From Brachybacterium muris (lineage in GTDB: Bacteria > Actinomycetota > Actinomycetes > Actinomycetales > Dermabacteraceae): DNA of 64,000 nt. Positions 9,636-37,548 of this stretch are shown here, in pieces (position 1 is the stretch's first letter; each line of letters begins with the position of its first letter). The stretch covers positions 558,001 through 622,000 of the forward strand of contig NZ_JAFBCB010000001.1 in NCBI RefSeq assembly GCF_016907455.1, written 5' to 3'. The position numbers and the translations under genes are program-made. Below the pieces are notes generated by a model, which saw only the letters and a list, made by a program, of their open reading frames with translations, was not told the DNA's origin and made no database searches.

Positions 9636-9748
9636 TGAGTATTCGTAGTCGTGGGAGCCACCGAATCTTGCTCTTGGGGACCGCCGATCGTGCCGACGGG
9701 GGCCAGTAGCCGCCGCGGTGGGGACCACTGGCTCCCGCCGGCATCGGG

Positions 9749-10495
9749 TCACTGGGGCAGTGCGGTGTGTTCTCGCATGTTCCTGTCGCCGGTGTCGATC
9801 CAGATTGTGTTGTGCACGATGCGGTCCATGATCGCATCGGCGTGGACTGCTCCACCGAGCCGGGCGTGCCAGTCCTTCTTCGGGTACTGGGTGCAGAACA
9901 CGGTCGAGCCGGTGTCATAGCGGCGCTCGAGCAGTTCCAGCAGCATCGAACGCATTCCCTCGTCAGGATGGTCCAGCAGCCACTCGTCGATCACCAGCAG
10001 CGAGAACGTGGAGTACTTCCGCAGGAACTTCGTCTGGCCCTGCGGCTTGTCCTTTGCCAGGGCCCAGGCCTCTTCGAGGTCGGGCATTCGGATGTAGTGG
10101 GCTCGGAGCCGGTGCTGGCAGGCCTGCTTCGCCAGCGCGCAGCCGAGGTAGGACTTCCCTGAGCCGGTGAAGCCCTGGAAGACCACGTTCTGTTGCCGCT
10201 GGATGAAGGAGCAGGTTGCCAGTTGCGCGATCACGTTCCGGTTCAGTCCCCGTTCCTCGACCAGATCCAGCCGCCGCAGGTCCGCTCCGGGATAACGCAG
10301 CCCCGCCCGGCGGATCAGACCCTCGACCTTTCCATGATTGAAGATGGAATGCGCCTCGTCCACGATCAGCTGGAGCCGTTCCTGGAACGACATCCCCAGC
10401 ACGTGAGCCTCATCCTGGGCATCGATCGCGTCCAGCAGCGCGGTCGCGCCCATCTCGCGCAGCTTCCGCTTCGTGTCGTTATCGATCACGCTCAC
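9749..10495 (-). CDS. istB: IS21 transposition helper ATPase IstB (copy A)
   Basis: 248 residues, AAA+ ATPase of the IstB/DnaC family that assembles on target DNA and activates the IstA transposase. Walker A GFTGSGKS is at residues 108-115 and Walker B LLVIDEW near 167-173. The GTG start at 10495 overlaps the istA stop in a GTGA motif, so translation is coupled to istA. The protein is identical to the other two copies in the window, so it is recent and intact. Confidence 0.93.
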   Translation of the reverse strand: MSVIDNDTKRKLREMGATALLDAIDAQDEAHVLGMSFQERLQLIVDEAHSIFNHGKVEGLIRRAGLRYPGADLRRLDLVEERGLNRNVIAQLATCSFIQRQQNVVFQGFTGSGKSYLGCALAKQACQHRLRAHYIRMPDLEEAWALAKDKPQGQTKFLRKYSTFSLLVIDEWLLDHPDEGMRSMLLELLERRYDTGSTVFCTQYPKKDWHARLGGAVHADAIMDRIVHNTIWIDTGDRNMREHTALPQ

Positions 10496-12054
10496 CGGAC
10501 ACCTCCGGCGTAGTAGTCGGCGCCACGGACGTATCCGCCGTCTTCCGCGGGTTCCTCGCGGGGTGGACGCAGGGCGGCGACCTTGTCCTGCCCGGTGGCC
10601 AAGATCGGGTGCAGATGCGCATAGCGCGGTGAACGGACCCGTCCCGTCAGCGCGAGTGCGCAGGCCGCCTCGACCCGATCTACGGAGAAGCGGCGAGAGA
10701 GCCGTAGCACCGCCAACGCGGGATCCAGGCCCTGTTCCACGATCGGCACGGACTCGAAGATCCGCTGGATCACGATCACCGTGGCCGGCCCGACCCGATC
10801 TGCCCACGCCCGCACCCTCTGCGCGTCCCAGGCCTGGAAACGCTCGCCCGCAGGTAGGTCCGCGTCGTTGGTGCGGTACTCATTGCTCGCGGTCTCCGGG
10901 AGCAGCAGGTGACTGGTCAGTCGCTGGCTGCCCTGATAGATCTCCAGCGTCCGGGCCGTGATGCGCAGATCGACCTTCGCGCCGATGTGCGCGAACGGCG
11001 CGGAGTAGAAGTTCCGCGCGAACGTGACGTGCCCGTTCCTGCCCACTCGTCGTCCGTAGTGCCATGTCGAGATCTCGTAGGGCACCGCCGGCAGCGGCGT
11101 CAGCAGCGGCCGCTCCTCCGCGTCGAACACGCTGGCGCGGGATCCGGGCCGCTTCTGGAACGGCTCCGCGTTATAGGCCTCCATCCGCTGCCCGATGGCG
11201 GCTGCAAGTTCGGGCAGGGACGTGAATCGCTGATCCCGCAGCCCGGCGATGACCCAGGTCGCGACGTGCGCGACGGTGTTCTCCACGCTCGCCTTGTCTT
11301 TCGGTTTCCGCACCCTCCCCGGGAGCACCGCCGCCGAGTAATGCGCTGCCATCTCGCGATACGCATCGTTCAGGACGATCTCGCCCTCGCGGGGGTGCTT
11401 CACCACACCGGTCTTGAGGTTGTCCGGAACGATCCTCGGGACCGTCCCGCCCAGCGCCTCGAACATCGCTACGTGCGCTCGCAGCCAGGACTCCTGGCGC
11501 ATATCCAGCGCCGGGAAGCAGAACGCGTAACGAGAAAAAGGCAGGCAGGCAACGAACAAGAACACCTTCGAGACCTCGCCGGTGACCGGATCGGCCAGCT
11601 CCATCGTGGGGCCGGACCAGTCGACCTCCACGCTCTGGCCGGCCTTGTGACCGACTCTCGAAGCGGCACCGGTGACCATGACGTGGTGCTGGTAGGTGCG
11701 GCAAAACCGGTCATACCCCATCGCCGGATCCCCAGCCGCCGTGGTCGCGTCGAAGTACTCGCCGTGCAACAGCTTCAGCGTCACGCCGACCCTGGCCATC
11801 TCTCGATGGACCTGTTCCCAGTCCGGCTGTGCGAACACGCTCTCGTGCTCGCCCCGGCCCGGGAACAACCGGGCATACACCTGCTCATCGGCGACGTCCG
11901 CGATATCGCCCCACCCGATCCCTGCAGCGTCAGCGGCCTCGAACACCGCCCTCACGGACTTGCGGGACATGCCCTGCGAGGACGAAATCGCTCGCCCCGA
12001 CAGACCTTCTGCGCGCAGCTGGAGCACCAGCTTCGCCCTGATCTTCCGTACCAT
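10492..12054 (-). CDS. istA: IS21 transposase IstA (copy A)
   Basis: 520 residues. An N-terminal helix-turn-helix (LRAEGLSGRAISSSQGMSRK, near residues 14-33) precedes an rve/RNase H-like catalytic core. The DDE triad is visible as D145 (VEVDWSG), D211 (VPDNLK) and E258 (KASVENT). A Mu-type C-terminal domain follows. The full length and identity to copies B and C indicate an active or recently active element. The ATG at 12054 lies 9 bases after a GGAAGGAG ribosome site that is buried in a hairpin. Confidence 0.93.
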   Translation of the reverse strand: MVRKIRAKLVLQLRAEGLSGRAISSSQGMSRKSVRAVFEAADAAGIGWGDIADVADEQVYARLFPGRGEHESVFAQPDWEQVHREMARVGVTLKLLHGEYFDATTAAGDPAMGYDRFCRTYQHHVMVTGAASRVGHKAGQSVEVDWSGPTMELADPVTGEVSKVFLFVACLPFSRYAFCFPALDMRQESWLRAHVAMFEALGGTVPRIVPDNLKTGVVKHPREGEIVLNDAYREMAAHYSAAVLPGRVRKPKDKASVENTVAHVATWVIAGLRDQRFTSLPELAAAIGQRMEAYNAEPFQKRPGSRASVFDAEERPLLTPLPAVPYEISTWHYGRRVGRNGHVTFARNFYSAPFAHIGAKVDLRITARTLEIYQGSQRLTSHLLLPETASNEYRTNDADLPAGERFQAWDAQRVRAWADRVGPATVIVIQRIFESVPIVEQGLDPALAVLRLSRRFSVDRVEAACALALTGRVRSPRYAHLHPILATGQDKVAALRPPREEPAEDGGYVRGADYYAGGVR

Positions 12055-12062
12055 TCCAGATT

Positions 12063-12103
12063 GCTCCTTCCGCCGCGTGCCCTATACACACGGCGGAAGG
12101 AGC
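12063..12103 (-). promoter_or_regulatory. hairpin enclosing the istA ribosome-binding site (copy A)
   Basis: Same structure as at 26472-26512: 13 perfect base pairs extended to 17 with one G-U pair and a 7-base loop. The 3' arm contains GGAAGGAG, the istA Shine-Dalgarno sequence. Confidence 0.7.
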
Positions 12104-12216
12104 GTAGACAGAGCGGCCCCAACGACACCACTGGTGGTCCCGAACGACGCCACCGCTACGGCAGCGACGTGGCACCCGAACCCTCGATCAGCGGACCCCA
12201 GCGAGGCGAATATTCA

Positions 12217-23995: not shown

Positions 23996-24972
23996 GCCAC
24001 TTCCGGCCAGGGCGAGCCGCCCGCAGCCGTGCCCGCCGGTCGGCACCCCCGCTGCCTCAGCGTGACGGCCTCGACCCCGTGCGCCACCGGGTCGCTCGTG
24101 ACGCTGCGCAGGGCATCGCCTTCGATAGCCTGCTGACCAGGTTCCCCGCCCTGGGTGACCCAGAGGCGACGCCGTTGCACGAGCGCTTCGTGCGCGGTGA
24201 GATCGTGCGGGCCGACGGGACCGCCTGGGCCGCCGACGCCCCGGTCGAGCCCGGCGACGAGCTGTGGTTCCATCGAGAGCTGCGCGAGGAAGCCGTGCCG
24301 GAGATGGACCTGCCGATCCTGCACCAGGACGACCATCTGCTGGTGGTGGACAAGCCCCACGACATGGCCACGATGCCACGTGGCACCCACGTGCTCTCCA
24401 GCGCCCTGGTGCGCCTGCGCCGCTCCACCGGCATCACCACGCTCAGTCCCCTGCATCGCCTGGACCGTCGTACCGCCGGCGTGCTGGCCTTCGGTGTGGA
24501 TCCTGCCGAACGCAGTGCCTACCAGGAGCTGTTCGCCCGCCGTGAGGTGCTCAAGGAGTACCTGGCCCGGGTAGGGCCGTACCGCGAAGGCGCCGCCGTG
24601 CCGGCTGATCTGCCCACGATGGTCGGCGCGCGCACGGTGCTGCGCGATCGCCTGGTCAAGGAGCGCGATGATCTGCTCACCCGCCTGGTGGCAGGGGAGC
24701 CCAACGCGATCACCGAGGTCGAGGTGGCCGCCGTCGAGCTGGACGGCACCCTCACCCTGCGGCTGCGACCGCTCACTGGCCGCACCCACCAGCTGCGCGC
24801 GCAGCTCGCCTCCCGAGGCATGCCCATCGTGGGGGAGGACCTCTACCCCACGCCTCGTGATCCGGTCGGGTCGCTGCAGCTGCTGGCCCGCTCCCTCGCC
24901 TTCACCGACCCCGTCACCGGGCAGGAGCGACGGTTCACCTCCGCGCTCGACCTGCCGGGACCCCCGTCATGA
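23992..24972 (+). CDS. RluA-family RNA pseudouridine synthase
   Basis: About 326 residues. It isomerises uridine in rRNA or tRNA. The catalytic motif HRLDRRTAGVLAFG carries the essential Asp, with VVDKPHDMATMPRGTHV before it and LTGRTHQLRAQLASRGMPIVGEDLYP after it. The GTG at 23992 overlaps the preceding stop (GTGA). The first 25 residues are Arg-rich. The target position cannot be assigned. Confidence 0.88.
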   Translation: MSHFRPGRAARSRARRSAPPLPQRDGLDPVRHRVARDAAQGIAFDSLLTRFPALGDPEATPLHERFVRGEIVRADGTAWAADAPVEPGDELWFHRELREEAVPEMDLPILHQDDHLLVVDKPHDMATMPRGTHVLSSALVRLRRSTGITTLSPLHRLDRRTAGVLAFGVDPAERSAYQELFARREVLKEYLARVGPYREGAAVPADLPTMVGARTVLRDRLVKERDDLLTRLVAGEPNAITEVEVAAVELDGTLTLRLRPLTGRTHQLRAQLASRGMPIVGEDLYPTPRDPVGSLQLLARSLAFTDPVTGQERRFTSALDLPGPPS

Positions 24973-25022
24973 ATGGCGACATCGACGGTGAGAGCCCGCG
25001 GCCGGCCCCGTACCCTGGGAGG

Positions 25023-25796
25023 GTGACGACCGGTGAGACGCTCAGCGACGCCGCGACCGCGCCGGCCCCCCGCCGCACCCGGTCCGGCGCGGTGCTCGTC
25101 GGCCCCAGCATCAGGGCCCGCTACCTGCCCGGGGTGTTGATCGGGCTGCCCCTGATCTCCTTGCTGCTGTCTCCCTTCGCGGGGGCGGGCCTGCAGCAGT
25201 GGCGGCGAACCCGCATCCTGGACGGGCACCGCGGACCGCTCGAGCAGATGCTCGAACCGGCGTGGACGCAGCTGCTTGTCGGTGCGCTGTTGCTGTGGGG
25301 CCTGTTCGCACTGTGGGCGTTCGTGCCGTTGGTGTTCACCCGCCGGGTCGCCCTGCTCGATGAGCAGCACGGTGCCCTGGCCCTGCGCAAGGGGATGCGC
25401 ACCACGGACCGAGCCCGCATGGACCAGGTGGTCTACGCCGTGGGGGAGGCCGAGCGCGGGTCCCTGGCGCTGATCGGGATCCGCGACGATGCGGCGCAGG
25501 AGCGCCAGTGGCTGATCCCGGAGATCGGCTGGGACCAGGCCTCCTTCGACGGTCTGCGCATGCTGCAGACTGCCGCCGGTCTGCGAGCGGCACCACCGCG
25601 CCGCGTCCTGGTGGACGAGGCGCGCCGGGCCCGACGCGAGCAGAACAACCGGGAGCTCGCCCAGCGGCTCGGCATGCCCTGGCAGCCCGACTACGGGCAC
25701 GACGAGGGAGCCTTCCAGGCCGAATTCGACCGCGTTCGACGGGTGGTGGGAGGCAAGGAGCCCCCGCGCGAGGGTGATCCGAGCGCGCAGCTGTGA
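25023..25796 (+). CDS. two-span membrane protein, unknown function
   Basis: About 257 residues from GTG 25023. This start was chosen because TACCCT ends 6 bases before it (leaderless pattern); an ATG at 24969 overlapping the preceding stop is an alternative and adds 18 residues. Two hydrophobic segments (YLPGVLIGLPLISLLLSPFAGAG; LLVGALLLWGLFALWAFVPLVF) precede a soluble C-terminal half with REQNNRELAQRLGMPWQPDYG. No family is recognised. It is the last gene before the accessory island. Confidence 0.6.
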   Translation: MTTGETLSDAATAPAPRRTRSGAVLVGPSIRARYLPGVLIGLPLISLLLSPFAGAGLQQWRRTRILDGHRGPLEQMLEPAWTQLLVGALLLWGLFALWAFVPLVFTRRVALLDEQHGALALRKGMRTTDRARMDQVVYAVGEAERGSLALIGIRDDAAQERQWLIPEIGWDQASFDGLRMLQTAAGLRAAPPRRVLVDEARRARREQNNRELAQRLGMPWQPDYGHDEGAFQAEFDRVRRVVGGKEPPREGDPSAQL

Positions 25797-25803
25797 GCGT
25801 CGC

Positions 25804-26010
25804 TCAAAGGGGCATCTGACGGATCCGTTCGAGGGCGCGCTGCAGACTCGGTGACCTGGATGCAGCTCGCATCGCGTCCCAGCGTGACTCAGCGAACTGC
25901 TGGAGCGTAGTGACATACCCGGTTCCGATTCGTCCGTTGCTGCGCACCATTGCCGCACGGATCGTTCGTGATCGTGACCGAGCGCATATCTGTAGCAGAC
26001 GCTGTTTGGG
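25804..26010 (-). pseudogene. 3' end of TOPRIM/DUF4276-like gene, cut off by ISL3 insertion
   Basis: When the sequence 26003-32627 is removed, the minus-strand frame of the gene starting at 33016 continues here without a break: DPKQ joins RLLQICARSRSRTIRAAM and runs to ALERIRQMPL and the TGA at 25804. The restored protein is 195 residues. The tail is basic and helical. In the present chromosome this piece has no start and is not translated as part of the protein. Confidence 0.8.
26003..26010. repeat. target duplication, left side of ISL3 element
   Basis: TGTTTGGG, identical to 32628-32635. Confidence 0.92.
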
Positions 26011-26054
26011 GGCTCTTCGTGGTTCGTGGTGAATGGGTCTGCTGTGGCGGGTAT

Positions 26055-26358
26055 TCACGCTGCGGTTCTCGCGGCGCTGGCCAGCAGGATACGGGTCCGG
26101 TAGTTCTCGGCGTTGCGGAAGCCGCGGCCGGTGCGTTTGATGTTCTTGATGCCCGTGTTCGCTGCCTCGACTCGGGCGGTGGTCGCGCCGGTGAGGATGA
26201 GGACCTCGATCGCGTCCCACCAGGTCACGATGGTGTCGTAGAGCTTGGTCGCCTCGGGAATGTTCGCGATCTGGACGAAGTAACCCATCCGCATCCGTTC
26301 GTCCCAGGCCTGGGCCAGGGTGTCGGTGGCCAGCAGGCGGCGGAGCTGCTCCTTGATG
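26055..26358 (-). pseudogene. ISL3 transposase, C-terminal fragment
   Basis: Encodes KEQLRRLLATDTLAQAWDER through GATTARVEAANTGIKNIKRT and ends ASAARTAA, TGA at 26055. The VEAANTGIKNIKRTGRGFRN block is the conserved C-terminal DDE-domain end of ISL3 transposases, containing the catalytic Glu. It joins in frame to the fragment at 28940-29231 once IS21 copy B and one TTGATG are removed. Confidence 0.9.
26353..26358. repeat. target duplication, left side of IS21 copy B
   Basis: TTGATG, identical to 28940-28945. Confidence 0.88.
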
Positions 26359-26471
26359 TGAATATTCGCCTCGCTGGGGTCCGCTGATCGAGGGTTCGGG
26401 TGCCACGTCGCTGCCGTAGCGGTGGCGTCGTTCGGGACCACCAGTGGTGTCGTTGGGGCCGCTCTGTCTAC

Positions 26472-26512
26472 GCTCCTTCCGCCGTGTGTATAGGGCACGC
26501 GGCGGAAGGAGC
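26472..26512 (+). promoter_or_regulatory. hairpin enclosing the istA ribosome-binding site (copy B)
   Basis: 26472-26484 pairs perfectly with 26500-26512 (13 bp). Four more pairs, including one G-U, bring the stem to 17 bp around a 7-base loop. GGAAGGAG (26504-26511), the only Shine-Dalgarno sequence before the ATG at 26521, is inside the 3' arm. Transcripts that start upstream of the element would fold it; a transcript starting inside the stem would not. Confidence 0.7.
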
Positions 26513-26520
26513 AATCTGGA

Positions 26521-28083
26521 ATGGTACGGAAGATCAGGGCGAAGCTGGTGCTCCAGCTGCGCGCAGAAGGTCTGTCGGGGCGAGCGATTTCGTCCTCGCA
26601 GGGCATGTCCCGCAAGTCCGTGAGGGCGGTGTTCGAGGCCGCTGACGCTGCAGGGATCGGGTGGGGCGATATCGCGGACGTCGCCGATGAGCAGGTGTAT
26701 GCCCGGTTGTTCCCGGGCCGGGGCGAGCACGAGAGCGTGTTCGCACAGCCGGACTGGGAACAGGTCCATCGAGAGATGGCCAGGGTCGGCGTGACGCTGA
26801 AGCTGTTGCACGGCGAGTACTTCGACGCGACCACGGCGGCTGGGGATCCGGCGATGGGGTATGACCGGTTTTGCCGCACCTACCAGCACCACGTCATGGT
26901 CACCGGTGCCGCTTCGAGAGTCGGTCACAAGGCCGGCCAGAGCGTGGAGGTCGACTGGTCCGGCCCCACGATGGAGCTGGCCGATCCGGTCACCGGCGAG
27001 GTCTCGAAGGTGTTCTTGTTCGTTGCCTGCCTGCCTTTTTCTCGTTACGCGTTCTGCTTCCCGGCGCTGGATATGCGCCAGGAGTCCTGGCTGCGAGCGC
27101 ACGTAGCGATGTTCGAGGCGCTGGGCGGGACGGTCCCGAGGATCGTTCCGGACAACCTCAAGACCGGTGTGGTGAAGCACCCCCGCGAGGGCGAGATCGT
27201 CCTGAACGATGCGTATCGCGAGATGGCAGCGCATTACTCGGCGGCGGTGCTCCCGGGGAGGGTGCGGAAACCGAAAGACAAGGCGAGCGTGGAGAACACC
27301 GTCGCGCACGTCGCGACCTGGGTCATCGCCGGGCTGCGGGATCAGCGATTCACGTCCCTGCCCGAACTTGCAGCCGCCATCGGGCAGCGGATGGAGGCCT
27401 ATAACGCGGAGCCGTTCCAGAAGCGGCCCGGATCCCGCGCCAGCGTGTTCGACGCGGAGGAGCGGCCGCTGCTGACGCCGCTGCCGGCGGTGCCCTACGA
27501 GATCTCGACATGGCACTACGGACGACGAGTGGGCAGGAACGGGCACGTCACGTTCGCGCGGAACTTCTACTCCGCGCCGTTCGCGCACATCGGCGCGAAG
27601 GTCGATCTGCGCATCACGGCCCGGACGCTGGAGATCTATCAGGGCAGCCAGCGACTGACCAGTCACCTGCTGCTCCCGGAGACCGCGAGCAATGAGTACC
27701 GCACCAACGACGCGGACCTACCTGCGGGCGAGCGTTTCCAGGCCTGGGACGCGCAGAGGGTGCGGGCGTGGGCAGATCGGGTCGGGCCGGCCACGGTGAT
27801 CGTGATCCAGCGGATCTTCGAGTCCGTGCCGATCGTGGAACAGGGCCTGGATCCCGCGTTGGCGGTGCTACGGCTCTCTCGCCGCTTCTCCGTAGATCGG
27901 GTCGAGGCGGCCTGCGCACTCGCGCTGACGGGACGGGTCCGTTCACCGCGCTATGCGCATCTGCACCCGATCTTGGCCACCGGGCAGGACAAGGTCGCCG
28001 CCCTGCGTCCACCCCGCGAGGAACCCGCGGAAGACGGCGGATACGTCCGTGGCGCCGACTACTACGCCGGAGGTGTCCGGTGA
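26521..28083 (+). CDS. istA: IS21 transposase IstA (copy B)
   Basis: Residue-for-residue identical to copy A: 520 residues, helix-turn-helix, DDE residues D145, D211 and E258. The reading frame is intact. Its translation start is under the hairpin at 26472-26512. Transcription runs toward copy C. Confidence 0.94.
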   Translation: MVRKIRAKLVLQLRAEGLSGRAISSSQGMSRKSVRAVFEAADAAGIGWGDIADVADEQVYARLFPGRGEHESVFAQPDWEQVHREMARVGVTLKLLHGEYFDATTAAGDPAMGYDRFCRTYQHHVMVTGAASRVGHKAGQSVEVDWSGPTMELADPVTGEVSKVFLFVACLPFSRYAFCFPALDMRQESWLRAHVAMFEALGGTVPRIVPDNLKTGVVKHPREGEIVLNDAYREMAAHYSAAVLPGRVRKPKDKASVENTVAHVATWVIAGLRDQRFTSLPELAAAIGQRMEAYNAEPFQKRPGSRASVFDAEERPLLTPLPAVPYEISTWHYGRRVGRNGHVTFARNFYSAPFAHIGAKVDLRITARTLEIYQGSQRLTSHLLLPETASNEYRTNDADLPAGERFQAWDAQRVRAWADRVGPATVIVIQRIFESVPIVEQGLDPALAVLRLSRRFSVDRVEAACALALTGRVRSPRYAHLHPILATGQDKVAALRPPREEPAEDGGYVRGADYYAGGVR

Positions 28084-28826
28084 GCGTGATCGATAACGAC
28101 ACGAAGCGGAAGCTGCGCGAGATGGGCGCGACCGCGCTGCTGGACGCGATCGATGCCCAGGATGAGGCTCACGTGCTGGGGATGTCGTTCCAGGAACGGC
28201 TCCAGCTGATCGTGGACGAGGCGCATTCCATCTTCAATCATGGAAAGGTCGAGGGTCTGATCCGCCGGGCGGGGCTGCGTTATCCCGGAGCGGACCTGCG
28301 GCGGCTGGATCTGGTCGAGGAACGGGGACTGAACCGGAACGTGATCGCGCAACTGGCAACCTGCTCCTTCATCCAGCGGCAACAGAACGTGGTCTTCCAG
28401 GGCTTCACCGGCTCAGGGAAGTCCTACCTCGGCTGCGCGCTGGCGAAGCAGGCCTGCCAGCACCGGCTCCGAGCCCACTACATCCGAATGCCCGACCTCG
28501 AAGAGGCCTGGGCCCTGGCAAAGGACAAGCCGCAGGGCCAGACGAAGTTCCTGCGGAAGTACTCCACGTTCTCGCTGCTGGTGATCGACGAGTGGCTGCT
28601 GGACCATCCTGACGAGGGAATGCGTTCGATGCTGCTGGAACTGCTCGAGCGCCGCTATGACACCGGCTCGACCGTGTTCTGCACCCAGTACCCGAAGAAG
28701 GACTGGCACGCCCGGCTCGGTGGAGCAGTCCACGCCGATGCGATCATGGACCGCATCGTGCACAACACAATCTGGATCGACACCGGCGACAGGAACATGC
28801 GAGAACACACCGCACTGCCCCAGTGA
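28080..28826 (+). CDS. istB: IS21 helper ATPase IstB (copy B)
   Basis: 248 residues, identical to copies A and C. Walker A GFTGSGKS and Walker B LLVIDEW are intact. The GTG at 28080 overlaps the istA stop (GTGA). Confidence 0.94.
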   Translation: MSVIDNDTKRKLREMGATALLDAIDAQDEAHVLGMSFQERLQLIVDEAHSIFNHGKVEGLIRRAGLRYPGADLRRLDLVEERGLNRNVIAQLATCSFIQRQQNVVFQGFTGSGKSYLGCALAKQACQHRLRAHYIRMPDLEEAWALAKDKPQGQTKFLRKYSTFSLLVIDEWLLDHPDEGMRSMLLELLERRYDTGSTVFCTQYPKKDWHARLGGAVHADAIMDRIVHNTIWIDTGDRNMREHTALPQ

Positions 28827-28939
28827 CCCGATGCCGGCGGGAGCCAGTGGTCCCCACCGCGGCGGCTACTGGCCCCCGTCGGCACGATCGGCGGTCCCCA
28901 AGAGCAAGATTCGGTGGCTCCCACGACTACGAATACTCA

Positions 28940-29231
28940 TTGATGCCCCAGGCGGCGGAGAGCTCGTCGGTGGGGTCATCGGTGCCAAACACGTCCTCGA
29001 GCCGCTCCCAGGCGCGCGGGGTGAGGGTGTCAGCGCCTCGCAGCAGCAGCATCCGGTGCGCCCAGGCCGGATCGTCCTTGCGACCCCGACGACCGTGGTG
29101 GGTGCGGGCGAGGCGCTGCCTGACAGTGGTGACCATGTCGTTTCCCAGCTTGACGAGGTGGAACTTGTCGACCGATACCGCGGCGCGGGGCAGGTAGGTC
29201 CGCAGTGCTTTGCGGAACGCCGCTGAGGGAT
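28940..29231 (-). pseudogene. ISL3 transposase, central fragment
   Basis: Encodes PSAAFRKALRTYLPRAAVSV, DKFHLVKLGNDM and on to ELSAAWGI. The VDKFHLVKLGN block is the conserved second catalytic Asp region of ISL3 transposases. Left of it, one TTGATG belongs to the copy B duplication; right of it, GGAT (29228-29231) belongs to copy C. With both IS21 copies removed the junctions read AIDP-SAAF and AAWGI-KEQL in frame. Confidence 0.9.
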
Positions 29232-29344
29232 TGAGTATTCGTAGTCGTGGGAGCCACCGAATCTTGCTCTTGGGGACCGCCGATCGTGCCGACGGGGGCC
29301 AGTAGCCGCCGCGGTGGGGACCACTGGCTCCCGCCGGCATCGGG

Positions 29345-30091
29345 TCACTGGGGCAGTGCGGTGTGTTCTCGCATGTTCCTGTCGCCGGTGTCGATCCAGA
29401 TTGTGTTGTGCACGATGCGGTCCATGATCGCATCGGCGTGGACTGCTCCACCGAGCCGGGCGTGCCAGTCCTTCTTCGGGTACTGGGTGCAGAACACGGT
29501 CGAGCCGGTGTCATAGCGGCGCTCGAGCAGTTCCAGCAGCATCGAACGCATTCCCTCGTCAGGATGGTCCAGCAGCCACTCGTCGATCACCAGCAGCGAG
29601 AACGTGGAGTACTTCCGCAGGAACTTCGTCTGGCCCTGCGGCTTGTCCTTTGCCAGGGCCCAGGCCTCTTCGAGGTCGGGCATTCGGATGTAGTGGGCTC
29701 GGAGCCGGTGCTGGCAGGCCTGCTTCGCCAGCGCGCAGCCGAGGTAGGACTTCCCTGAGCCGGTGAAGCCCTGGAAGACCACGTTCTGTTGCCGCTGGAT
29801 GAAGGAGCAGGTTGCCAGTTGCGCGATCACGTTCCGGTTCAGTCCCCGTTCCTCGACCAGATCCAGCCGCCGCAGGTCCGCTCCGGGATAACGCAGCCCC
29901 GCCCGGCGGATCAGACCCTCGACCTTTCCATGATTGAAGATGGAATGCGCCTCGTCCACGATCAGCTGGAGCCGTTCCTGGAACGACATCCCCAGCACGT
30001 GAGCCTCATCCTGGGCATCGATCGCGTCCAGCAGCGCGGTCGCGCCCATCTCGCGCAGCTTCCGCTTCGTGTCGTTATCGATCACGCTCAC
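29345..30091 (-). CDS. istB: IS21 helper ATPase IstB (copy C)
   Basis: 248 residues, identical to the other copies, with GTG at 30091 overlapping the istA stop. It converges on istB of copy B across the 292-base ISL3 fragment. Confidence 0.94.
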   Translation of the reverse strand: MSVIDNDTKRKLREMGATALLDAIDAQDEAHVLGMSFQERLQLIVDEAHSIFNHGKVEGLIRRAGLRYPGADLRRLDLVEERGLNRNVIAQLATCSFIQRQQNVVFQGFTGSGKSYLGCALAKQACQHRLRAHYIRMPDLEEAWALAKDKPQGQTKFLRKYSTFSLLVIDEWLLDHPDEGMRSMLLELLERRYDTGSTVFCTQYPKKDWHARLGGAVHADAIMDRIVHNTIWIDTGDRNMREHTALPQ

Positions 30092-31650
30092 CGGACACCT
30101 CCGGCGTAGTAGTCGGCGCCACGGACGTATCCGCCGTCTTCCGCGGGTTCCTCGCGGGGTGGACGCAGGGCGGCGACCTTGTCCTGCCCGGTGGCCAAGA
30201 TCGGGTGCAGATGCGCATAGCGCGGTGAACGGACCCGTCCCGTCAGCGCGAGTGCGCAGGCCGCCTCGACCCGATCTACGGAGAAGCGGCGAGAGAGCCG
30301 TAGCACCGCCAACGCGGGATCCAGGCCCTGTTCCACGATCGGCACGGACTCGAAGATCCGCTGGATCACGATCACCGTGGCCGGCCCGACCCGATCTGCC
30401 CACGCCCGCACCCTCTGCGCGTCCCAGGCCTGGAAACGCTCGCCCGCAGGTAGGTCCGCGTCGTTGGTGCGGTACTCATTGCTCGCGGTCTCCGGGAGCA
30501 GCAGGTGACTGGTCAGTCGCTGGCTGCCCTGATAGATCTCCAGCGTCCGGGCCGTGATGCGCAGATCGACCTTCGCGCCGATGTGCGCGAACGGCGCGGA
30601 GTAGAAGTTCCGCGCGAACGTGACGTGCCCGTTCCTGCCCACTCGTCGTCCGTAGTGCCATGTCGAGATCTCGTAGGGCACCGCCGGCAGCGGCGTCAGC
30701 AGCGGCCGCTCCTCCGCGTCGAACACGCTGGCGCGGGATCCGGGCCGCTTCTGGAACGGCTCCGCGTTATAGGCCTCCATCCGCTGCCCGATGGCGGCTG
30801 CAAGTTCGGGCAGGGACGTGAATCGCTGATCCCGCAGCCCGGCGATGACCCAGGTCGCGACGTGCGCGACGGTGTTCTCCACGCTCGCCTTGTCTTTCGG
30901 TTTCCGCACCCTCCCCGGGAGCACCGCCGCCGAGTAATGCGCTGCCATCTCGCGATACGCATCGTTCAGGACGATCTCGCCCTCGCGGGGGTGCTTCACC
31001 ACACCGGTCTTGAGGTTGTCCGGAACGATCCTCGGGACCGTCCCGCCCAGCGCCTCGAACATCGCTACGTGCGCTCGCAGCCAGGACTCCTGGCGCATAT
31101 CCAGCGCCGGGAAGCAGAACGCGTAACGAGAAAAAGGCAGGCAGGCAACGAACAAGAACACCTTCGAGACCTCGCCGGTGACCGGATCGGCCAGCTCCAT
31201 CGTGGGGCCGGACCAGTCGACCTCCACGCTCTGGCCGGCCTTGTGACCGACTCTCGAAGCGGCACCGGTGACCATGACGTGGTGCTGGTAGGTGCGGCAA
31301 AACCGGTCATACCCCATCGCCGGATCCCCAGCCGCCGTGGTCGCGTCGAAGTACTCGCCGTGCAACAGCTTCAGCGTCACGCCGACCCTGGCCATCTCTC
31401 GATGGACCTGTTCCCAGTCCGGCTGTGCGAACACGCTCTCGTGCTCGCCCCGGCCCGGGAACAACCGGGCATACACCTGCTCATCGGCGACGTCCGCGAT
31501 ATCGCCCCACCCGATCCCTGCAGCGTCAGCGGCCTCGAACACCGCCCTCACGGACTTGCGGGACATGCCCTGCGAGGACGAAATCGCTCGCCCCGACAGA
31601 CCTTCTGCGCGCAGCTGGAGCACCAGCTTCGCCCTGATCTTCCGTACCAT
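30088..31650 (-). CDS. istA: IS21 transposase IstA (copy C)
   Basis: 520 residues, identical to copies A and B, all DDE residues present. The ATG at 31650 lies 9 bases after the hairpin-buried ribosome site. Confidence 0.94.
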   Translation of the reverse strand: MVRKIRAKLVLQLRAEGLSGRAISSSQGMSRKSVRAVFEAADAAGIGWGDIADVADEQVYARLFPGRGEHESVFAQPDWEQVHREMARVGVTLKLLHGEYFDATTAAGDPAMGYDRFCRTYQHHVMVTGAASRVGHKAGQSVEVDWSGPTMELADPVTGEVSKVFLFVACLPFSRYAFCFPALDMRQESWLRAHVAMFEALGGTVPRIVPDNLKTGVVKHPREGEIVLNDAYREMAAHYSAAVLPGRVRKPKDKASVENTVAHVATWVIAGLRDQRFTSLPELAAAIGQRMEAYNAEPFQKRPGSRASVFDAEERPLLTPLPAVPYEISTWHYGRRVGRNGHVTFARNFYSAPFAHIGAKVDLRITARTLEIYQGSQRLTSHLLLPETASNEYRTNDADLPAGERFQAWDAQRVRAWADRVGPATVIVIQRIFESVPIVEQGLDPALAVLRLSRRFSVDRVEAACALALTGRVRSPRYAHLHPILATGQDKVAALRPPREEPAEDGGYVRGADYYAGGVR

Positions 31651-31658
31651 TCCAGATT

Positions 31659-31699
31659 GCTCCTTCCGCCGCGTGCCCTATACACACGGCGGAAGGAGC
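31659..31699 (-). promoter_or_regulatory. hairpin enclosing the istA ribosome-binding site (copy C)
   Basis: Identical structure to the one at 26472-26512, on the minus strand. Confidence 0.7.
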
Positions 31700-31812
31700 G
31701 TAGACAGAGCGGCCCCAACGACACCACTGGTGGTCCCGAACGACGCCACCGCTACGGCAGCGACGTGGCACCCGAACCCTCGATCAGCGGACCCCAGCGA
31801 GGCGAATATTCA

Positions 31813-32513
31813 GGATCGATGGCGACGACCTCGATCCGCTCCCGCCAGCACTCGGAGCGTTGGGCGAGCCAGGTACCGACGGCGGTGGAGTCCCGGCCGT
31901 CGACGATACCGAGGACCTGCCCAGTGGTCAGGTCGACCAGGGTCGTCATCCAGGGCTCGAACCGTCTCCAGGCACCGTCGTCGGTGCGGAACCAGCGCAC
32001 CGACCGGTAGCGGTGCTCATCGATGCCCAGGCGCGTCACCGGCACCTCGTCAACGGCAGGCAGGGCCACGGCGGCAGCCGCCAGCGCGGCCTGGACCAGC
32101 CACCACGAGACGCCATGGGCCTGAGCGACTTCCGAGGCCGCCCGGCCCGAGGTGATCACCGCAGAGACGACCTGATCGCGCGGCCGGGTGGTCGAGCGTG
32201 CGTATCGGGGGACCTGGTCGGTGGCTTCCCAGAACGTGCGCCGGGCGCAGGCCGGCTCGAGGCAGAACCAGCGCCGCTTGGCCCACACCACCTGAACCGT
32301 CCCGGCCACGGGGACGTCTCGCACCTGCTGAGAGCGGCGGGAGTGGACCTTCGTCGCGATCACCCCGCACGACGGGCACCCGGGTGGGACGCTCGAGGCG
32401 ATCACCACTTGACGCCCTCCGTCGGACAGGTCGATCGCGTCAACGACGCGGTAGTTGGGCAGGTTGAAGATCGTGCTCGCAGCATCACGCTGCGGACCAG
32501 TACTCTCATACAC
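31813..32513 (-). pseudogene. ISL3 transposase, N-terminal fragment
   Basis: From GTG 32513: NYRVVDAIDLSDGGRQVVIA, then the zinc-finger-like N-terminus CPSCGV...RRSQQVRDVPVAG...RRWFCLEPACARRTF, a helix-turn-helix region, and the catalytic start LGIDEHRYRSVRWF. The text ends at VVAIDP, where IS21 copy C begins. Together with the two other fragments it makes a 428-residue ISL3 transposase, so the split is the only visible lesion. Confidence 0.9.
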
Positions 32514-32515
32514 AG

Positions 32516-32575
32516 GCTCGTGGTCCTCTGAGATATGGATGTCTTGACAACACCCATCACAGCAGGACCACGAGC
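32516..32575 (-). promoter_or_regulatory. inverted repeat over the ISL3 transposase leader
   Basis: GCTCGTGGTCCT (32516-32527) and its exact complement (32564-32575) are 12-base arms with a 36-base loop, just before the GTG at 32513. The GAGGA ribosome site overlaps the arm nearest the gene. A role in blocking translation of read-through mRNA is inferred. Confidence 0.5.
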
Positions 32576-32627
32576 CGCTCTACGCCAGCGACGCGACGCT
32601 CTCCATCACCACGAACCGTGAAGAGCC

Positions 32628-32635
32628 TGTTTGGG
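32628..32635. repeat. target duplication, right side of ISL3 element
   Basis: TGTTTGGG, identical to 26003-26010. Confidence 0.92.
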
Positions 32636-33016
32636 GTCTCTGATCATCTCCGGGGCAGCAGGCAGATCATCGGTGCGTACGGAGAAGTACTGCGCGAAGC
32701 CCTCGTGGTCGGCCATGAGCCAGGCCTCCGTCATCGCATGCGCGATACGGAGTTGGAAGCTCGGGGGCAGGGGCGAGACTGTTCCGACAAGTTCCTCGCG
32801 GAGCTCGACGGGGCAGACGCCGTCTGAATCGCGAATGATGACGTAGGAACCGTGGGCACTCGCCGAGATGTATTTGTGCAGATCTCTATCCAGCGCCCCC
32901 GTGCCGCGCTTGACGAAGACGCGACCAGGGGACCTGCCCGCAGCCTCGATGACAGCCCGAGCGGCCGCGACGTCGGAATCTCCCTCCACAACGACGGTGA
33001 TGCCCGCAGTCATCAT
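32628..33016 (-). pseudogene. TOPRIM/DUF4276-like nuclease gene, 5' part, interrupted by ISL3
   Basis: The ATG at 33016 overlaps the ATPase stop (ATGA). Visible are ITVVVEGDSDVAAARAVIEA with the TOPRIM-like Glu, a Lys-Arg-Gly-Thr-Gly segment (VKRGTGALDRDL), and VIIRDSDGVCPVELREEL with the Asp-x-Asp. HAMTEAWLMADHEGFAQYF is a conserved segment of DUF4276-type proteins. After EMIRDPK the frame enters the ISL3 end and stops at 32606, giving 136 residues instead of 195. The catalytic part is largely kept; the basic C-terminal third (25804-26002) is lost. It probably acts with the ATPase encoded just upstream. Family assignment is by motif only. Confidence 0.7.
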
Positions 33017-34164
33017 AGCCGCAAAGCCAATTGACGCGCCGCGACGGGTTCGATCAGAGATTGGACGATCTCCGACAAGGGGAGACCTGAGTCCACCTCG
33101 GCCCGGACCTCTGCAATGTCGGAGAGCAACGAGGCGGTGCTGCCGTCTTCTGTGACCCGCATGACCAGCACTTCCTCCGGTAGAACTGTCTCCTCGTCCA
33201 AGAGCTCTGGCGCGTGCGTGGACAGCAGCACTTGCAGATCGCGATCGCGCTGCACACGGGCAAGAAGAGCGGGCACGGTGCGAACGATTCCCGCGTTCAA
33301 AGACAGCTCTGGTTCCTCGAACAGGAGCACTCCACCGGAGGAGGGGGCGCTGACGAGCGTCCACAGCAGGCCGATCAAGCGCAGCGTCCCATCGGACAGC
33401 TCCGACTCGGTCTGCCGGGTGGGGGCGGGGCGCCAATTGCGGTAGGTGGCGTGCAGGTGGGGGACCCCGGACGCATCGGGCTCAACGCTCAGGGACTCGA
33501 ACTGGGGTACAGCAGCCTGCAGCGCGTTCTCTATCTTCTGCAGCCACGCCGATCGGGTCCGCGACGCCGTTTCGTTCATCTGCTTAATGACGTCGCTGCC
33601 GAAAGGGTCGCGCGGCCCGGATGCGTGGAAGAAACCGGGGTTGCGGATGATCTGTGGAACCGGATGGAAGTACCGCGTCTTCTGGAGGTGCTCGGCAAGT
33701 TCGCGGAACGATTTGTTGGCCGTGATCTGTTCCAGGTGGGTCTGGGTCAGCAGTTCCGGATCGGCTTCGTCGGAGGCATCGGGGCGTCGCAACAACTCTT
33801 CGCCGTTGCGCGTGACCACTTCTTCTGCGACGAGAGCGCGATGGTGGCCGCGCTGCTCGCCCTTGACGGCGAGGTGGTACGTCCACTCATCTGCATCGTC
33901 GCTGAAATGTGCGGTCACCGATACCTGTCCGTAACGGTGGTTGCGTGCGAAGAGGGACCGCACCGCACTGAAGCCGCCCCGATCAGCGAAGGCGGCCGCG
34001 AGACCTCCGCCGGGCCGGGCTATGTCCGTAAGGAACCGGAACACATCTAGCAGATTTGATTTCCCCGCGGCGTTGGGTCCCACGATGAACAGTCTGTCCT
34101 CGATTGGGAACTGGACGTCCTTGAAGTTCCGCCAGTTTTGGACGTTCATGTGTGTGAATCGCAT
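33013..34164 (-). CDS. OLD/PARIS-like AAA ATPase of a putative defence module
   Basis: 383 residues, ABC/SMC-like AAA ATPase (AAA_15/AAA_21). Walker A GPNAAGKS is at residues 29-36, Walker B LLFEEPELSLN near 285, and the D/H-loop LLSTHAPELLD near 320. A central insertion of mostly helical text lies between. Unlike OLD nucleases it has no fused TOPRIM domain; the next gene, overlapping by four bases, supplies one. The ATG at 34164 is used because GAAGGAGG lies 6 bases before it; an ATG six codons upstream is less likely. ATPase plus TOPRIM pairs such as PARIS and AbiL-type modules defend against phage. Here the partner is disrupted, so the module is probably inactive. Confidence 0.78.
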   Translation of the reverse strand: MRFTHMNVQNWRNFKDVQFPIEDRLFIVGPNAAGKSNLLDVFRFLTDIARPGGGLAAAFADRGGFSAVRSLFARNHRYGQVSVTAHFSDDADEWTYHLAVKGEQRGHHRALVAEEVVTRNGEELLRRPDASDEADPELLTQTHLEQITANKSFRELAEHLQKTRYFHPVPQIIRNPGFFHASGPRDPFGSDVIKQMNETASRTRSAWLQKIENALQAAVPQFESLSVEPDASGVPHLHATYRNWRPAPTRQTESELSDGTLRLIGLLWTLVSAPSSGGVLLFEEPELSLNAGIVRTVPALLARVQRDRDLQVLLSTHAPELLDEETVLPEEVLVMRVTEDGSTASLLSDIAEVRAEVDSGLPLSEIVQSLIEPVAARQLALRL

Positions 34165-34238
34165 GGGCCCTCCTTCCGTCATGATGGCGGGAGTCTACCG
34201 GTGAGTTGTGGCGTGGGAACCGCCGGTAGGCTCGCTGT

Positions 34239-35585
34239 ATGACCAGCAACGCCGCGTCACCGGCACCGGAGCGGGAACCGGGGGACCATCGGCCTGGGTC
34301 CCGGCCGGTGCCCACCTCGACCAGCCCCATCGGGGTGGCCGACTCCCTCACCATCCGCTCCGAGGCGGCGGCCGCGGTGGGCAGCGAGCTGCTGGCCGGT
34401 GGCATGGCGTCCTACCGGGTGAAGGTGGCGATGAGCCGCACCGCCCGTGCCCTCGGCCTGGACTCCTTCACCTCGATCGTCACCTACACCGACATCACCG
34501 CCACGGCCACCCTGAACGGCCGCTACCGCACTCGCATCACCCAGCCGAAGCACGTGGGTGTGGACGTGGACCGCCTGTACCGCACCCAACGCTACGTGGA
34601 GTCCCTGCCCCCGCGCGGTGCCACCGCGGCCGACGTGTTCGAGGCCCTGGCCCGGATCAACGCTCGTGGCTCGCTGTACTCCCGCCCGGTGAACGCTCTT
34701 GCCGCCGGCATCGCCTGCGCGGCCTTCGCCTTCCTTAACCAGGCCGGCCTCATCGAGATCCTGGCGGTGCTGCTGGCCGCCACCGTGGGGCAGGCCGTAC
34801 GGCGGGTGTTCCAGCTGCGCCAGTGGAACCATCTGCTGGTCACCGTGATCGCCGCGGTGGTGACGGCGAGCCTGTACCTCACCGTGGTGGGTATCCCTGC
34901 GCAGCTGGGCTGGATCGGGCCGGGGAACCTCGGCGGGTTCATGGCCTCGGTGCTGTTCCTGGTGCCGGGCTTCCCGATGATCACCGGGATCCTGGACCTG
35001 GTGCGATCGGACTTCTCCGCGGGGATGGCCAGGCTCACCTACGCGGCGATGATCATCCTGGGCGCTGCGGCGTCCATCTGGACGGTGAGCGTGGCCGCCG
35101 GGGTGGAGACGCACCCCGCCACCCCGCTGGGACTGCCGTTCGAGCTGGAGCTGCCGTTGAGGGCCCTGGCCACGTTCATCGGTGTGCTGGGCTTCGCGAT
35201 CATCTTCAACTCCCCGTGGAAGATCGCGGTGGCCGCTGCGACGGTGTCCACGGTGGCCAACTCCCTGCGCTTCCTGATGACCGAAGGCGGGATCCCCGTG
35301 CAGCTGGCCACCCTCGCGGCCACGGTGCTGGTGGGGGTGGCCGCGTACGTGATCGCCCGGATCAGGCACGTGCCACGCATCTCGATCTCCGTGCCGGCGG
35401 TGGTGATCATGATCCCCGGCTACGCGATGTACAGCGGGTTCGCGACGCTCAATGCGGGGGAGCTGGCCGGCAGCGTGCTGCTGCTGCAGGAGGCGGTGCA
35501 GACGGTGCTGGCCGCTGCGTTCGGTCTGGCCCTGGCACACCTGGCCACCTCACCAGCATGGCGACGGGTGCACCAGCCCACGTGA
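34239..35585 (+). CDS. ThrE-type threonine/serine exporter
   Basis: 448 residues. An N-terminal soluble DUF1212/ThrE domain (ELLAGGMASYRVKVAMSRTA, RVFEALARINARG-like text) is followed by about ten hydrophobic segments in two blocks, ending with the ThrE_2-like C-terminal membrane part (SISVPAVVIMIPGYAMYSGF). Members export threonine and serine in Corynebacterium. TAGGCT lies 6 bases before the ATG and no ribosome site is visible, so it is probably leaderless. It is divergent from the defence operon with only 74 bases between. Confidence 0.82.
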   Translation: MTSNAASPAPEREPGDHRPGSRPVPTSTSPIGVADSLTIRSEAAAAVGSELLAGGMASYRVKVAMSRTARALGLDSFTSIVTYTDITATATLNGRYRTRITQPKHVGVDVDRLYRTQRYVESLPPRGATAADVFEALARINARGSLYSRPVNALAAGIACAAFAFLNQAGLIEILAVLLAATVGQAVRRVFQLRQWNHLLVTVIAAVVTASLYLTVVGIPAQLGWIGPGNLGGFMASVLFLVPGFPMITGILDLVRSDFSAGMARLTYAAMIILGAAASIWTVSVAAGVETHPATPLGLPFELELPLRALATFIGVLGFAIIFNSPWKIAVAAATVSTVANSLRFLMTEGGIPVQLATLAATVLVGVAAYVIARIRHVPRISISVPAVVIMIPGYAMYSGFATLNAGELAGSVLLLQEAVQTVLAAAFGLALAHLATSPAWRRVHQPT

Positions 35586-35610
35586 GTCCACAGCCGCACG
35601 GCTGATGGAT

Positions 35611-35647
35611 GTCCTGCTCGCCGTCCGTTCCGGCGCTGAGCAGGGAC
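35611..35647. terminator. possible bidirectional terminator between thrE-like and pit
   Basis: GTCCTGCTC (35611-35619) pairs with GAGCAGGGAC (35638-35647) apart from one bulged base. It lies between two convergent genes. Confidence 0.35.
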
Positions 35648-35656
35648 GCCAGATGA

Positions 35657-37324
35657 TCAGGCCAGGAACAGCGCGCGCAGCAGCAGCACGGTCACGGCGC
35701 CGATACCCGCCGCGGCAGGCAGGGTGATGATCCAGGCCAGGAAGATGGGCCGCATCAGCTTCCAGTTCGCTGCCCGGTTCACGATGCCCACACCGAGCAC
35801 TGCACCGATCAGGATGTGCGTGGAGGAGACCGGGAGGCCCAGCACGGAGGCCAGCAGCACCGTGGCCGCTGCGGCCAGTTCGGCAGCGAACCCGGAGGAG
35901 GGGTGCATCGAGGTCAGCCCCGTCCCGACGGTGTGGATCACCTTGCGTCCCACGAACCACAGACCGGCGATGAGAGCCACCCCAAACGCGATCAGCACAG
36001 CCATGGGCACCGCGGCCTCCTGACTGACGGTCCCGGTGCGCAGCACATCGAGTACCGCAGCGAACGGGCCCACCGCGTTGGCGATGTCGTTCGCACCGTG
36101 GCTGAACGCGAAGGCGCAGGCGGTGAACACCTGCAGCCAGCTGAACATGATGAAGGTGGCGCGGGAGATGGTCTGCTTGCGCAGGGCGCGGGCGAAAACC
36201 GTGGTGGCCATCCACACGCCGACCGCCAGCATGATCAGCATGACCCCGGCGCGCCAGAGAGTGAACTCCAGGCCCACGTTGCCCAGACCCTTGAACATCA
36301 GCATGGCGGCGATCACCACCGCGGCGCCCGCCGCGAGCGGGGGGACCCGCTTCTCCAGGGCGTGGTAGGCGGCCTTGCGCTCCACGTTGCGGGCGGCCTT
36401 GCGCTCCTTCTTGCTCAGCTGGCCGGCCTGCTCCACCAGTTCCGCGCCGGGGCTGCCCGGGCGGCGGTCCAGCTCGGCGGACTCGGCGAATGCGGACTGC
36501 TGCAGTTCGGTGACGCGCTCGTAGCCGGGGACGTGGCGGGACTCGTCCTCGGACGCGTCGTTGTCGTCGTCCTCGTCGTCGTCCTCATCGAATCCGCGTG
36601 AGCCCAGGGCGATCGCCCTGGCCGCCGGGGCCAGGATGCGGCGCTTGATCGCACCGAACAGCAGGTACGCCGCGATCCCGCCGAGCAGCGGGGAGAGCAC
36701 CCAGGAGACCGCGATCTGCCCGATCTCGCCCCACTGCACCATCGCCAGACCGCCGGTCCCGGTGACCAGGCCGGTGGTCACAGCTGCGCCCACGATGCCG
36801 CCGATGATCGCGTGGGTGGTCGAGACCGGCCAGCCCATCCGGGTGGCCAGTAGTAGCCACACCGCAGCTCCCAGTAGGGCCGACATCATGATGTAGGCGA
36901 AGGCTGGTGCATCGGACTGCAGGCCACCGAGGTCCACGATGCCGCTGCGCACCGTCTCGGTGACCGAGCCGCCGGCGAGCACTGCACCGGAGACCTCGAA
37001 CACGGCCGCCACCACGAGGGCCTGCTTCATGGTGAGGGTGCCGGCGCCCACGCTCGTGCCGAAGGAGTTGGCGACGTCGTTGCCGCCGATGTTGAACGCC
37101 ATGAACAGGCCGAAGGCGATCGCGAGGATCAGGATGAAGCTGTTCACCCCGGTGCCGGTGTGGGTGAACGCCCAGATGGTGAAGGCAACAGCCGTGGCGA
37201 CCAGAATCAGCCCGGCACCGAGGTGCCAGTTCCGGTCGGGGCCGAGTGCGCCGTACTGAGCCGGCGCGGCCCTGCCCGAAACAGCCGGGCGATCGCTGGA
37301 GCCCGGCTCGTGGGTGCGTGGCAT
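35657..37324 (-). CDS. pit: low-affinity inorganic phosphate transporter (PiT/PHO4 family)
   Basis: 555 residues. Two PHO4 repeats carry the family signature GGNDVANSFGTSVGAGTLT (N-terminal) and SHGANDIANAVGPFA (C-terminal). They are joined by a long cytoplasmic loop containing an almost uninterrupted acidic run of Asp and Glu (residues about 242-258) and a charged KKERKAARNVERKAA segment. It imports phosphate, usually as a metal-phosphate complex with a cation gradient. A PHO-box-like repeat and -10 box lie upstream at 37403-37446. The ATG at 37324 follows GGAGAGGGGAGG-like text. Confidence 0.9.
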   Translation of the reverse strand: MPRTHEPGSSDRPAVSGRAAPAQYGALGPDRNWHLGAGLILVATAVAFTIWAFTHTGTGVNSFILILAIAFGLFMAFNIGGNDVANSFGTSVGAGTLTMKQALVVAAVFEVSGAVLAGGSVTETVRSGIVDLGGLQSDAPAFAYIMMSALLGAAVWLLLATRMGWPVSTTHAIIGGIVGAAVTTGLVTGTGGLAMVQWGEIGQIAVSWVLSPLLGGIAAYLLFGAIKRRILAPAARAIALGSRGFDEDDDEDDDNDASEDESRHVPGYERVTELQQSAFAESAELDRRPGSPGAELVEQAGQLSKKERKAARNVERKAAYHALEKRVPPLAAGAAVVIAAMLMFKGLGNVGLEFTLWRAGVMLIMLAVGVWMATTVFARALRKQTISRATFIMFSWLQVFTACAFAFSHGANDIANAVGPFAAVLDVLRTGTVSQEAAVPMAVLIAFGVALIAGLWFVGRKVIHTVGTGLTSMHPSSGFAAELAAAATVLLASVLGLPVSSTHILIGAVLGVGIVNRAANWKLMRPIFLAWIITLPAAAGIGAVTVLLLRALFLA

Positions 37325-37402
37325 CGTCGTGGTTCCCGAGGGTGGAGAGGGGAGGATCCGCGGGTCACGTGCACACCCATGATTCCTGGCGAGGACGTGC
37401 TC

Positions 37403-37446
37403 ACTCTAGGACGTCAACAACGCCGGGGTGAACCTTGCGTGAATAC
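37403..37446 (-). promoter_or_regulatory. pit promoter with PHO-box-like direct repeats
   Basis: On the minus strand TTCAC occurs twice at an 11-base period (complement of 37439-37443 and 37428-37432), as ATTCACGCAAG and GTTCACCCCGG. The second unit overlaps the expected -35 position, 17 bases before the -10 TAGAGT (complement of 37403-37408). This is how PhoP boxes are placed in actinobacteria. Regulation by phosphate is inferred. Confidence 0.5.
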
Positions 37447-37458
37447 AGAGAACGACAT

Positions 37459-37491
37459 CACGTGCACGCGCTCGGAGCACACGTGCACGCG
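37459..37491. repeat. 12-base direct repeat, 21-base spacing, upstream of pit
   Basis: CACGTGCACGCG occurs at 37459-37470 and 37480-37491, exactly two helical turns apart. A third, shorter CACGTGCAC lies at 37366-37374 in the pit leader. It could be a regulator-binding site. Confidence 0.45.
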
Positions 37492-37508
37492 CACAGCCTC
37501 AGGGGCAC

Positions 37509-37532
37509 AACGCGGGACAGGAGTCCCGCGTT
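37509..37532 (-). terminator. terminator of the VOC-family gene
   Basis: A perfect 10-bp stem AACGCGGGAC (37509-37518) and its complement (37523-37532) with loop AGGA, 17 bases after the stop at 37549. Confidence 0.7.
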
Positions 37533-37548
37533 CCGTGGTCGAGCGTGG

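Follow-up and report, generated by a model that had tools for sequence, protein, structure and literature searches.

The locus described here raises the question of how a candidate defence operon came to be split by a transposable element that is itself split twice, in which order these insertions took place and what they left of the operon. It lies in a window of 64,000 nt of the Brachybacterium muris chromosome, whose positions are counted from 1 at its first letter; the genome (G000) is a single contig of 3,647,194 bp and the seven-digit positions below are chromosome coordinates. An earlier note on this DNA had described a putative defence operon interrupted by an ISL3 element, in turn interrupted by two copies of an IS21 element, and had taken the order of events to be readable from the target duplications. 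We regard it as highly probable, taking the reading as a whole, that an operon shared with Brachybacterium epidermidis received ISL3, that ISL3 then received two IS21 copies from a recent burst and that the operon is most likely dead.

Architecture of the nest and of the HEC-01 operon

The features of the locus are as follows.

25804..26002, minus strand: C-terminal piece of HEC-01B, 65 codons and a stop after the split codon (PDLC04197 match)
26003..26010, no strand: left copy of the 8-bp duplication TGTTTGGG, a single copy in B. epidermidis
26011..32627, minus strand: ISL3-family element, transposase on the minus strand and split in three (Pfam, frame arithmetic)
26353-26358 / 28940-28945, no strand: TTGATG duplication of IS21 copy 1
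26359..28939, plus strand: IS21 copy 1, one of 121 uninterrupted copies in the genome
26521..28083, plus strand: 520-aa istA transposase of copy 1, matching Pfam Mu-transpos_C_2 (E 3.6e-15) and, short of the cut-off, rve (E 1.6e-6)
28080..28826, plus strand: istB ATPase of copy 1, 248 aa, with a 4-bp overlap with istA (Pfam IstB_IS21, E 7.4e-41)
29228-29231 / 31813-31816, no strand: GGAT duplication of IS21 copy 2
29232..31812, minus strand: IS21 copy 2, identical to copy 1
32628..32635, no strand: right copy of TGTTTGGG, doubling as the end of the N-terminal HEC-01B piece
32628..33016, minus strand: N-terminal piece of HEC-01B, 129 codons and 2 bases, overlapping the ATPase stop (PDLC04197 match)
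33013..34182, minus strand: HEC-01A, an intact AAA_21 (OLD/AbiEii-type) ATPase of 389 aa (PADLOC PDLC04180, E 4.6e-160 over 7-387; Pfam AAA_21, E 4.6e-34)
9636..12216 (genome 567636-570216), minus strand: third IS21 copy of the window, duplication CACCG

The two IS21 copies in ISL3, each of 2,581 bp and with 0 differences between them, lie in opposite orientation, their right ends facing each other across 292 bp of ISL3. The ISL3 element has inverted ends, GGCTCTTCGTGGTTCGTGGTGA and GGCTCTTCACGGTTCGTGGTGA, that match at 20 of 22 bases, and measures 1,455 bp once both inserts are subtracted. The element coordinates of the earlier note and its exact duplications TTGATG, GGAT and TGTTTGGG all hold base for base, and its family labels are backed by Pfam domains. 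Zn_ribbon_ISL3, HTH_Tnp_ISL3 and DDE_Tnp_ISL3 are found across the three ISL3 pieces when these are searched separately; because the pieces match DDE_Tnp_ISL3 co-linearly, at 4-61, 63-149 and 153-240 of 240, they are three parts of one transposase gene. Like the TOPRIM gene, the transposase is broken. The two restored reading frames that had been proposed agree with arithmetic on the coordinates, the sequences themselves never being joined: the ISL3 pieces of 701, 288 and 298 nt give 428 codons and a stop, and the TOPRIM-like pieces of 389 and 199 nt give 195 codons and a stop.

In its zinc ribbon, HTH and DDE domains, its inverted ends and its 8-bp duplication, the ISL3 element resembles its family and differs from it only in being interrupted here. 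The IS21 copies share with theirs the overlapping istA and istB genes, the TG...CA ends and short duplications, which are typically of 4-8 bp in IS21 elements. What sets them apart is their number (~130 copies, identical where read), duplications of 4-7 bp and nests that seem to have moved as units. The presence of two IS21 copies in one ISL3 element of this length, against 0.06 expected, is a post-hoc figure, the locus having been chosen for it, and was not used as evidence.

The operon consists of two adjacent, overlapping genes that match genes A and B of HEC-01, a candidate defence system of PADLOC made of an AAA_21 ATPase and a TOPRIM-like protein of the OLD/GajA/AriB kind. The description as a putative defence operon is borne out by the HEC-01A match and by the two HEC-01B pieces, which are co-linear on PDLC04197: 32636-33016 covers profile positions 3-122 of 192 and 25804-26004 positions 126-189. 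Each piece shares 98% identity with the intact protein of B. epidermidis, which matches HEC-01B at E 4.7e-70 and has the HEC-01B models as its only PADLOC matches at E 0.001; gene B is thus split in this strain, whereas the B. epidermidis copy is intact. The TOPRIM label is supported by acidic residues and, below threshold, by fold. Glu11 and D63 are invariant across seven homologues, D63 opening a DSD motif at 63-65 of the B. epidermidis protein, and we take these residues to be the catalytic ones of a TOPRIM domain. With a model of moderate confidence only, the structure comparison is topped by OLD, GajA and AriA-AriB chains, all below threshold.

Unlike in OLD and in GajA of Gabija, the ATPase and TOPRIM parts of HEC-01 are separate genes, as they are in PARIS (AriA-AriB). 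The intact operon most likely works like this group, to judge from family and fold: the ATPase would sense infection and would activate or release the TOPRIM nuclease. No assay of HEC-01 for antiphage activity was found in a literature search; the term occurs in five papers, one of which has a title on phages and defence, and the passage seen there just lists the system. In the present strain the TOPRIM protein has lost its last third, and therefore the operon is most likely dead.

The IS21 burst across the chromosome

The two copies of the nest belong to a much larger set. A census by exact end patterns, in which all ends were listed with 20-base flanks and which mutated ends would escape, counted 130 left and 133 right IS21 ends in the genome. 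These pair into the 121 uninterrupted copies, leaving 9 left and 12 right ends from interrupted or partial copies. All 111 uninterrupted copies that were read are identical over 2,581 bp, which bounds the divergence between copies at less than ~1e-5 per site. Uninterrupted copies make up 8.6% of the chromosome; once interrupted and partial copies are included by a manual count, the total reaches ~339 kb or ~9.3%. Sixty-five copies are in plus and 56 in minus orientation, and no orientation bias is claimed from these counts. Three gaps between neighbours are shorter than 300 bp against 1.3 expected; as a sign of hot spots, such close pairs were rejected, the excess not being significant (P 0.15).

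Exact duplications of 4-7 bp flank 104 of the 121 copies (4 bp in 15, 5 bp in 49, 6 bp in 30 and 7 bp in 10), whereas random pairings of left and right flanks share a duplication of at least 4 bp in 1.2% of 14,520 cases. The remaining 17 fall into several groups. Five carry a duplication that is exact but for one position (those at 1854924 and 2294359 are only 4 bp long and may be chance), three are inner parts of larger units with matching outer ends and two form a pair with swapped duplications, described below. In one case a 23-bp end fragment follows the copy. Unexplained are the two nested copies at 47818 and 480171, which have no duplication, and four more, at 2087410, 2436961, 3110452 and 3421342, with neither duplication nor reciprocal partner.

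In a search of 38 genomes of the genus, this one included, at E 1e-30 and with seven candidates scored in each, an IS21 match was obtained from four of the 37 others: one copy at 83% in G003, at least five at 79% in G016, one partial copy at 73% in G038 and a 398-bp fragment at 87% in G023. None was found in G041 by the same search. No comparable expansion was seen among these 37 genomes, a sample in which draft assemblies collapse repeats. As a count, the expansion is already in print, since Table 2 of a published paper lists IS21 (135), IS3 (18) and IS1380 (14) for B. muris, the only genome of seven with IS21 in that table (PMC10581053). These 135 copies are probably the expansion seen here; the section of that paper holding the table gives the count only, and copy identity, duplications, nesting and targets are not in it.

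The IS21 burst is extreme and very recent, of a known kind and of unusual scale. The nest in ISL3 is an ordinary by-product of it: a clear textbook case, with an uninterrupted gene in a sister species, in which the object itself is ordinary. The scale and freshness of the burst matter more. With 121 insertions of one element, identical where read and mostly labelled by duplications, target choice and self-insertion can be measured without confounding by age, and the same set allows repeat-driven inversion and the early purging of harmful insertions to be measured. A bolder proposal, which we put forward tentatively and consider rather unlikely, is that an uncontrolled IS21 outbreak is under way in the strain, or has only just ended, with nests moving as larger units and several defence systems being dismantled at once (HEC-01 through ISL3, the JetA gene of Wadjet and a type ISP/IIG restriction gene). 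If true, this outbreak would constitute a natural saturation experiment on IS21 targeting.

Origin of the operon and order of events

Searching named genomes with the ATPase gave 18 loci, the best of which, at 99% identity, belongs to B. epidermidis Marseille-Q2903. In this species the window segments 24144-26016 and 32627-37998 are contiguous, with TGTTTGGG present once and no ISL3, and the empty site whose search had been proposed is thus at hand. Gene B is open there over 195 codons and continues through the junction, rather than ending before it as homologues contrary to the earlier note would.

The identity of the two species was followed in bins of 200 bp. Without ISL3, the stretch of ~24.4-34.3 kb (the HEC-01 operon and a neighbour), whose limits were set after inspecting the bins, has 15 of its 18 bins at 95-100% identity and the remaining three at 91-94%. 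The operon itself reaches 96-100%, while the bins just outside mostly fall to 75-90%; conserved stretches farther away, such as the groEL region, are back at 90-100%. The OrthoANI value between the two species is given as 86.95% (PMC8983266). Because the identity of the operon exceeds that of its flanks, it was probably shared recently with B. epidermidis by transfer or recombination. HEC-01A is found at E 1e-20 in 2 of 58 genomes, which include 36 of the genus, and both carriers, this genome and G041, are among the 36; in this sample of the genus the operon is rare. The intact, recently shared operon of B. epidermidis is a candidate for testing.

For the inner level of the nest, the genome was searched with the right 815 bp of ISL3, 40 of 134 candidates being scored. 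Within these limits the search yielded no intact ISL3 of this type. One other copy, at 2533000-2539300, is partial: its alignment takes in 125 bp of the middle piece (92% identity) and continues in the right piece (95% and 100%). It has no insertion where IS21 copy 2 lies in the nest, and GGAT occurs there once; for IS21 copy 1 no empty site was seen. This second ISL3 is split by an element of ~1.3 kb, which is split in turn by IS21; that this IS21 had inserted directly into the ISL3 was therefore rejected.

The events can be pictured as follows. The HEC-01 operon would have been shared recently with B. epidermidis. ISL3 inserted into the TOPRIM gene with an 8-bp duplication, as the B. epidermidis site without ISL3 shows. 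Later, the genome-wide burst put two IS21 copies into ISL3; their identity, their 6- and 4-bp duplications and one empty site attest to the insertions, their place in the order being inferred. IS21 most likely moves by ordinary IstA/IstB transposition, tolerating a target spacing of 4-7 bp and using its own copies as targets as well.

That the operon came first, ISL3 second and IS21 last is likely, and the priority of ISL3 over IS21 follows if ISL3 was functional when it reached the operon. The nesting claimed by the earlier note is strengthened by the ISL3-free site and by the IS21 site empty in the other ISL3; that the order is simply readable was too strong a statement, since the duplications leave room for an ISL3 already carrying IS21 to have landed in the operon. 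ISL3 would in that case have gained one or both IS21 copies elsewhere and brought them along into the operon, with transposase provided in trans. We consider this improbable. The 8-bp duplication is equally compatible with it. The search described above with the right 815 bp of ISL3, on the other hand, returned no intact ISL3; because the one other copy is partial and split, a helper is unlikely in the present genome, which does not speak to the past. In that copy, moreover, no IS21 occupies the site of copy 2, and the IS21 that it does hold lies inside another element. To an assembly artefact, in which repeat copies would have been misplaced or homogenised, we give very little credit. The identity of the 111 copies read is also what a polishing artefact would give. 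Yet 104 of 121 copies are each flanked by an individual exact duplication, where chance would give 1.2%, the ISL3-free site and the uninverted arrangement for one pair of copies come from an independent assembly of another species, and the published count for B. muris is of 135 IS21 copies (PMC10581053).

That the broken operon still works is, to our mind, quite unlikely, slightly more so than the entry of a loaded ISL3. The ATPase is intact and the N-terminal TOPRIM piece of the window (~130 of 195 residues) retains Glu11 and the DSD motif, from which the two together could keep a residual or altered role; the HEC-01B profile extends over the 65 residues lost, which belong to the better-modelled part of the protein. 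The succession of shared operon, ISL3 and two IS21 copies, ending in a most likely dead operon, remains the explanation that we favour.

Nested units, an inversion and the targets of IS21

IS21 has also inserted into itself. The nested unit consists of IS21 positions 1-2294, a full copy and positions 2290-2581, and is found at two places, with shorter forms at two more.

3130806-3135972: IS21-in-IS21 unit, duplication GACGC
2884387-2889553: IS21-in-IS21 unit, duplication ACTGGT, inside a further copy (2882401-2890154) whose ends are without duplication
1400334-1405208: shorter form of the unit, duplication GGCTC
2600564-2603436: shorter form of the unit, duplication CCGAGTC

Because the four places share the inner junction and each has its own outer duplication, the arrangement suggests that these nests moved as units. 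Alternatively, the nests may have arisen by repeated insertion at one favoured site, with later deletion for the shorter forms.

The IS21 copies at 2753035 (plus) and 2772692 (minus) have exchanged their duplications, CCGGG and GTGCT, and bound the region 2753035-2775272. In G041 their left flanks are contiguous, with a 5-bp overlap, in the order that precedes inversion. Because the duplications are swapped and the uninverted order is present in G041, ~17 kb were inverted by recombination between the two copies. At the nest in ISL3 there was no net inversion, since both IS21 copies there keep their own duplications. Widespread scrambling by IS21 recombination is unsupported, with one reciprocal swap among the 17 copies and the unpaired ends; several one-way flank pairings of 4-5 bp among those ends were attributed to chance or to nested copies. 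The left flank at 2753035, in a gene of the SBF (sodium/bile-acid-symporter) family, is 100% identical over 450 bp to G041 (contig C10, 33407-33856). If G041 is B. epidermidis, with a genome identity of ~87% to the B. muris studied here, this stretch may be another recently shared segment.

When each flank is taken alone, 103 copies can be examined and 87 have an exact duplication. Of these sites, 51, a figure that includes nested copies, disrupt a coding frame that is open on both flanks, 24 are coding on one side, four are coding on both sides out of frame and eight on neither. Random points of the window break a frame on both sides in 1,395 of 2,000 cases against 51 of the 87 IS21 sites (P 0.03); because the codon model behind the coding calls was trained on seven genes of the same window and so favours the control, this depletion is weak evidence. 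The pieces scanned include families of phosphofructokinase, formate-tetrahydrofolate ligase, methyladenine glycosylase and cytochrome oxidase. Mobile elements were hit too: four DDE_Tnp_1_4 transposase pieces are among the 78 scanned, one repeated element with HTH_Tnp_1 and rve domains carries IS21 at three places, two insertions are in ISL3 and several in IS21 itself.

Three copies lie in genes with matches to defence functions, no enrichment of such genes among IS21 targets being claimed. That at 2971802-2974382 is inside a gene matching Wadjet JetA (DUF3375), that at 1231752-1234332 inside one matching a type ISP/IIG restriction enzyme and that at 1228107-1230687 inside a gene with a GmrSD_N match below its cut-off. 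PADLOC gave 40 families at E 1e-10 on the 78 pieces; the 25 of these that were listed include JetA, the restriction gene, PD-T4-6, mad6, MkoA, PDC-S07 and a kinase model.
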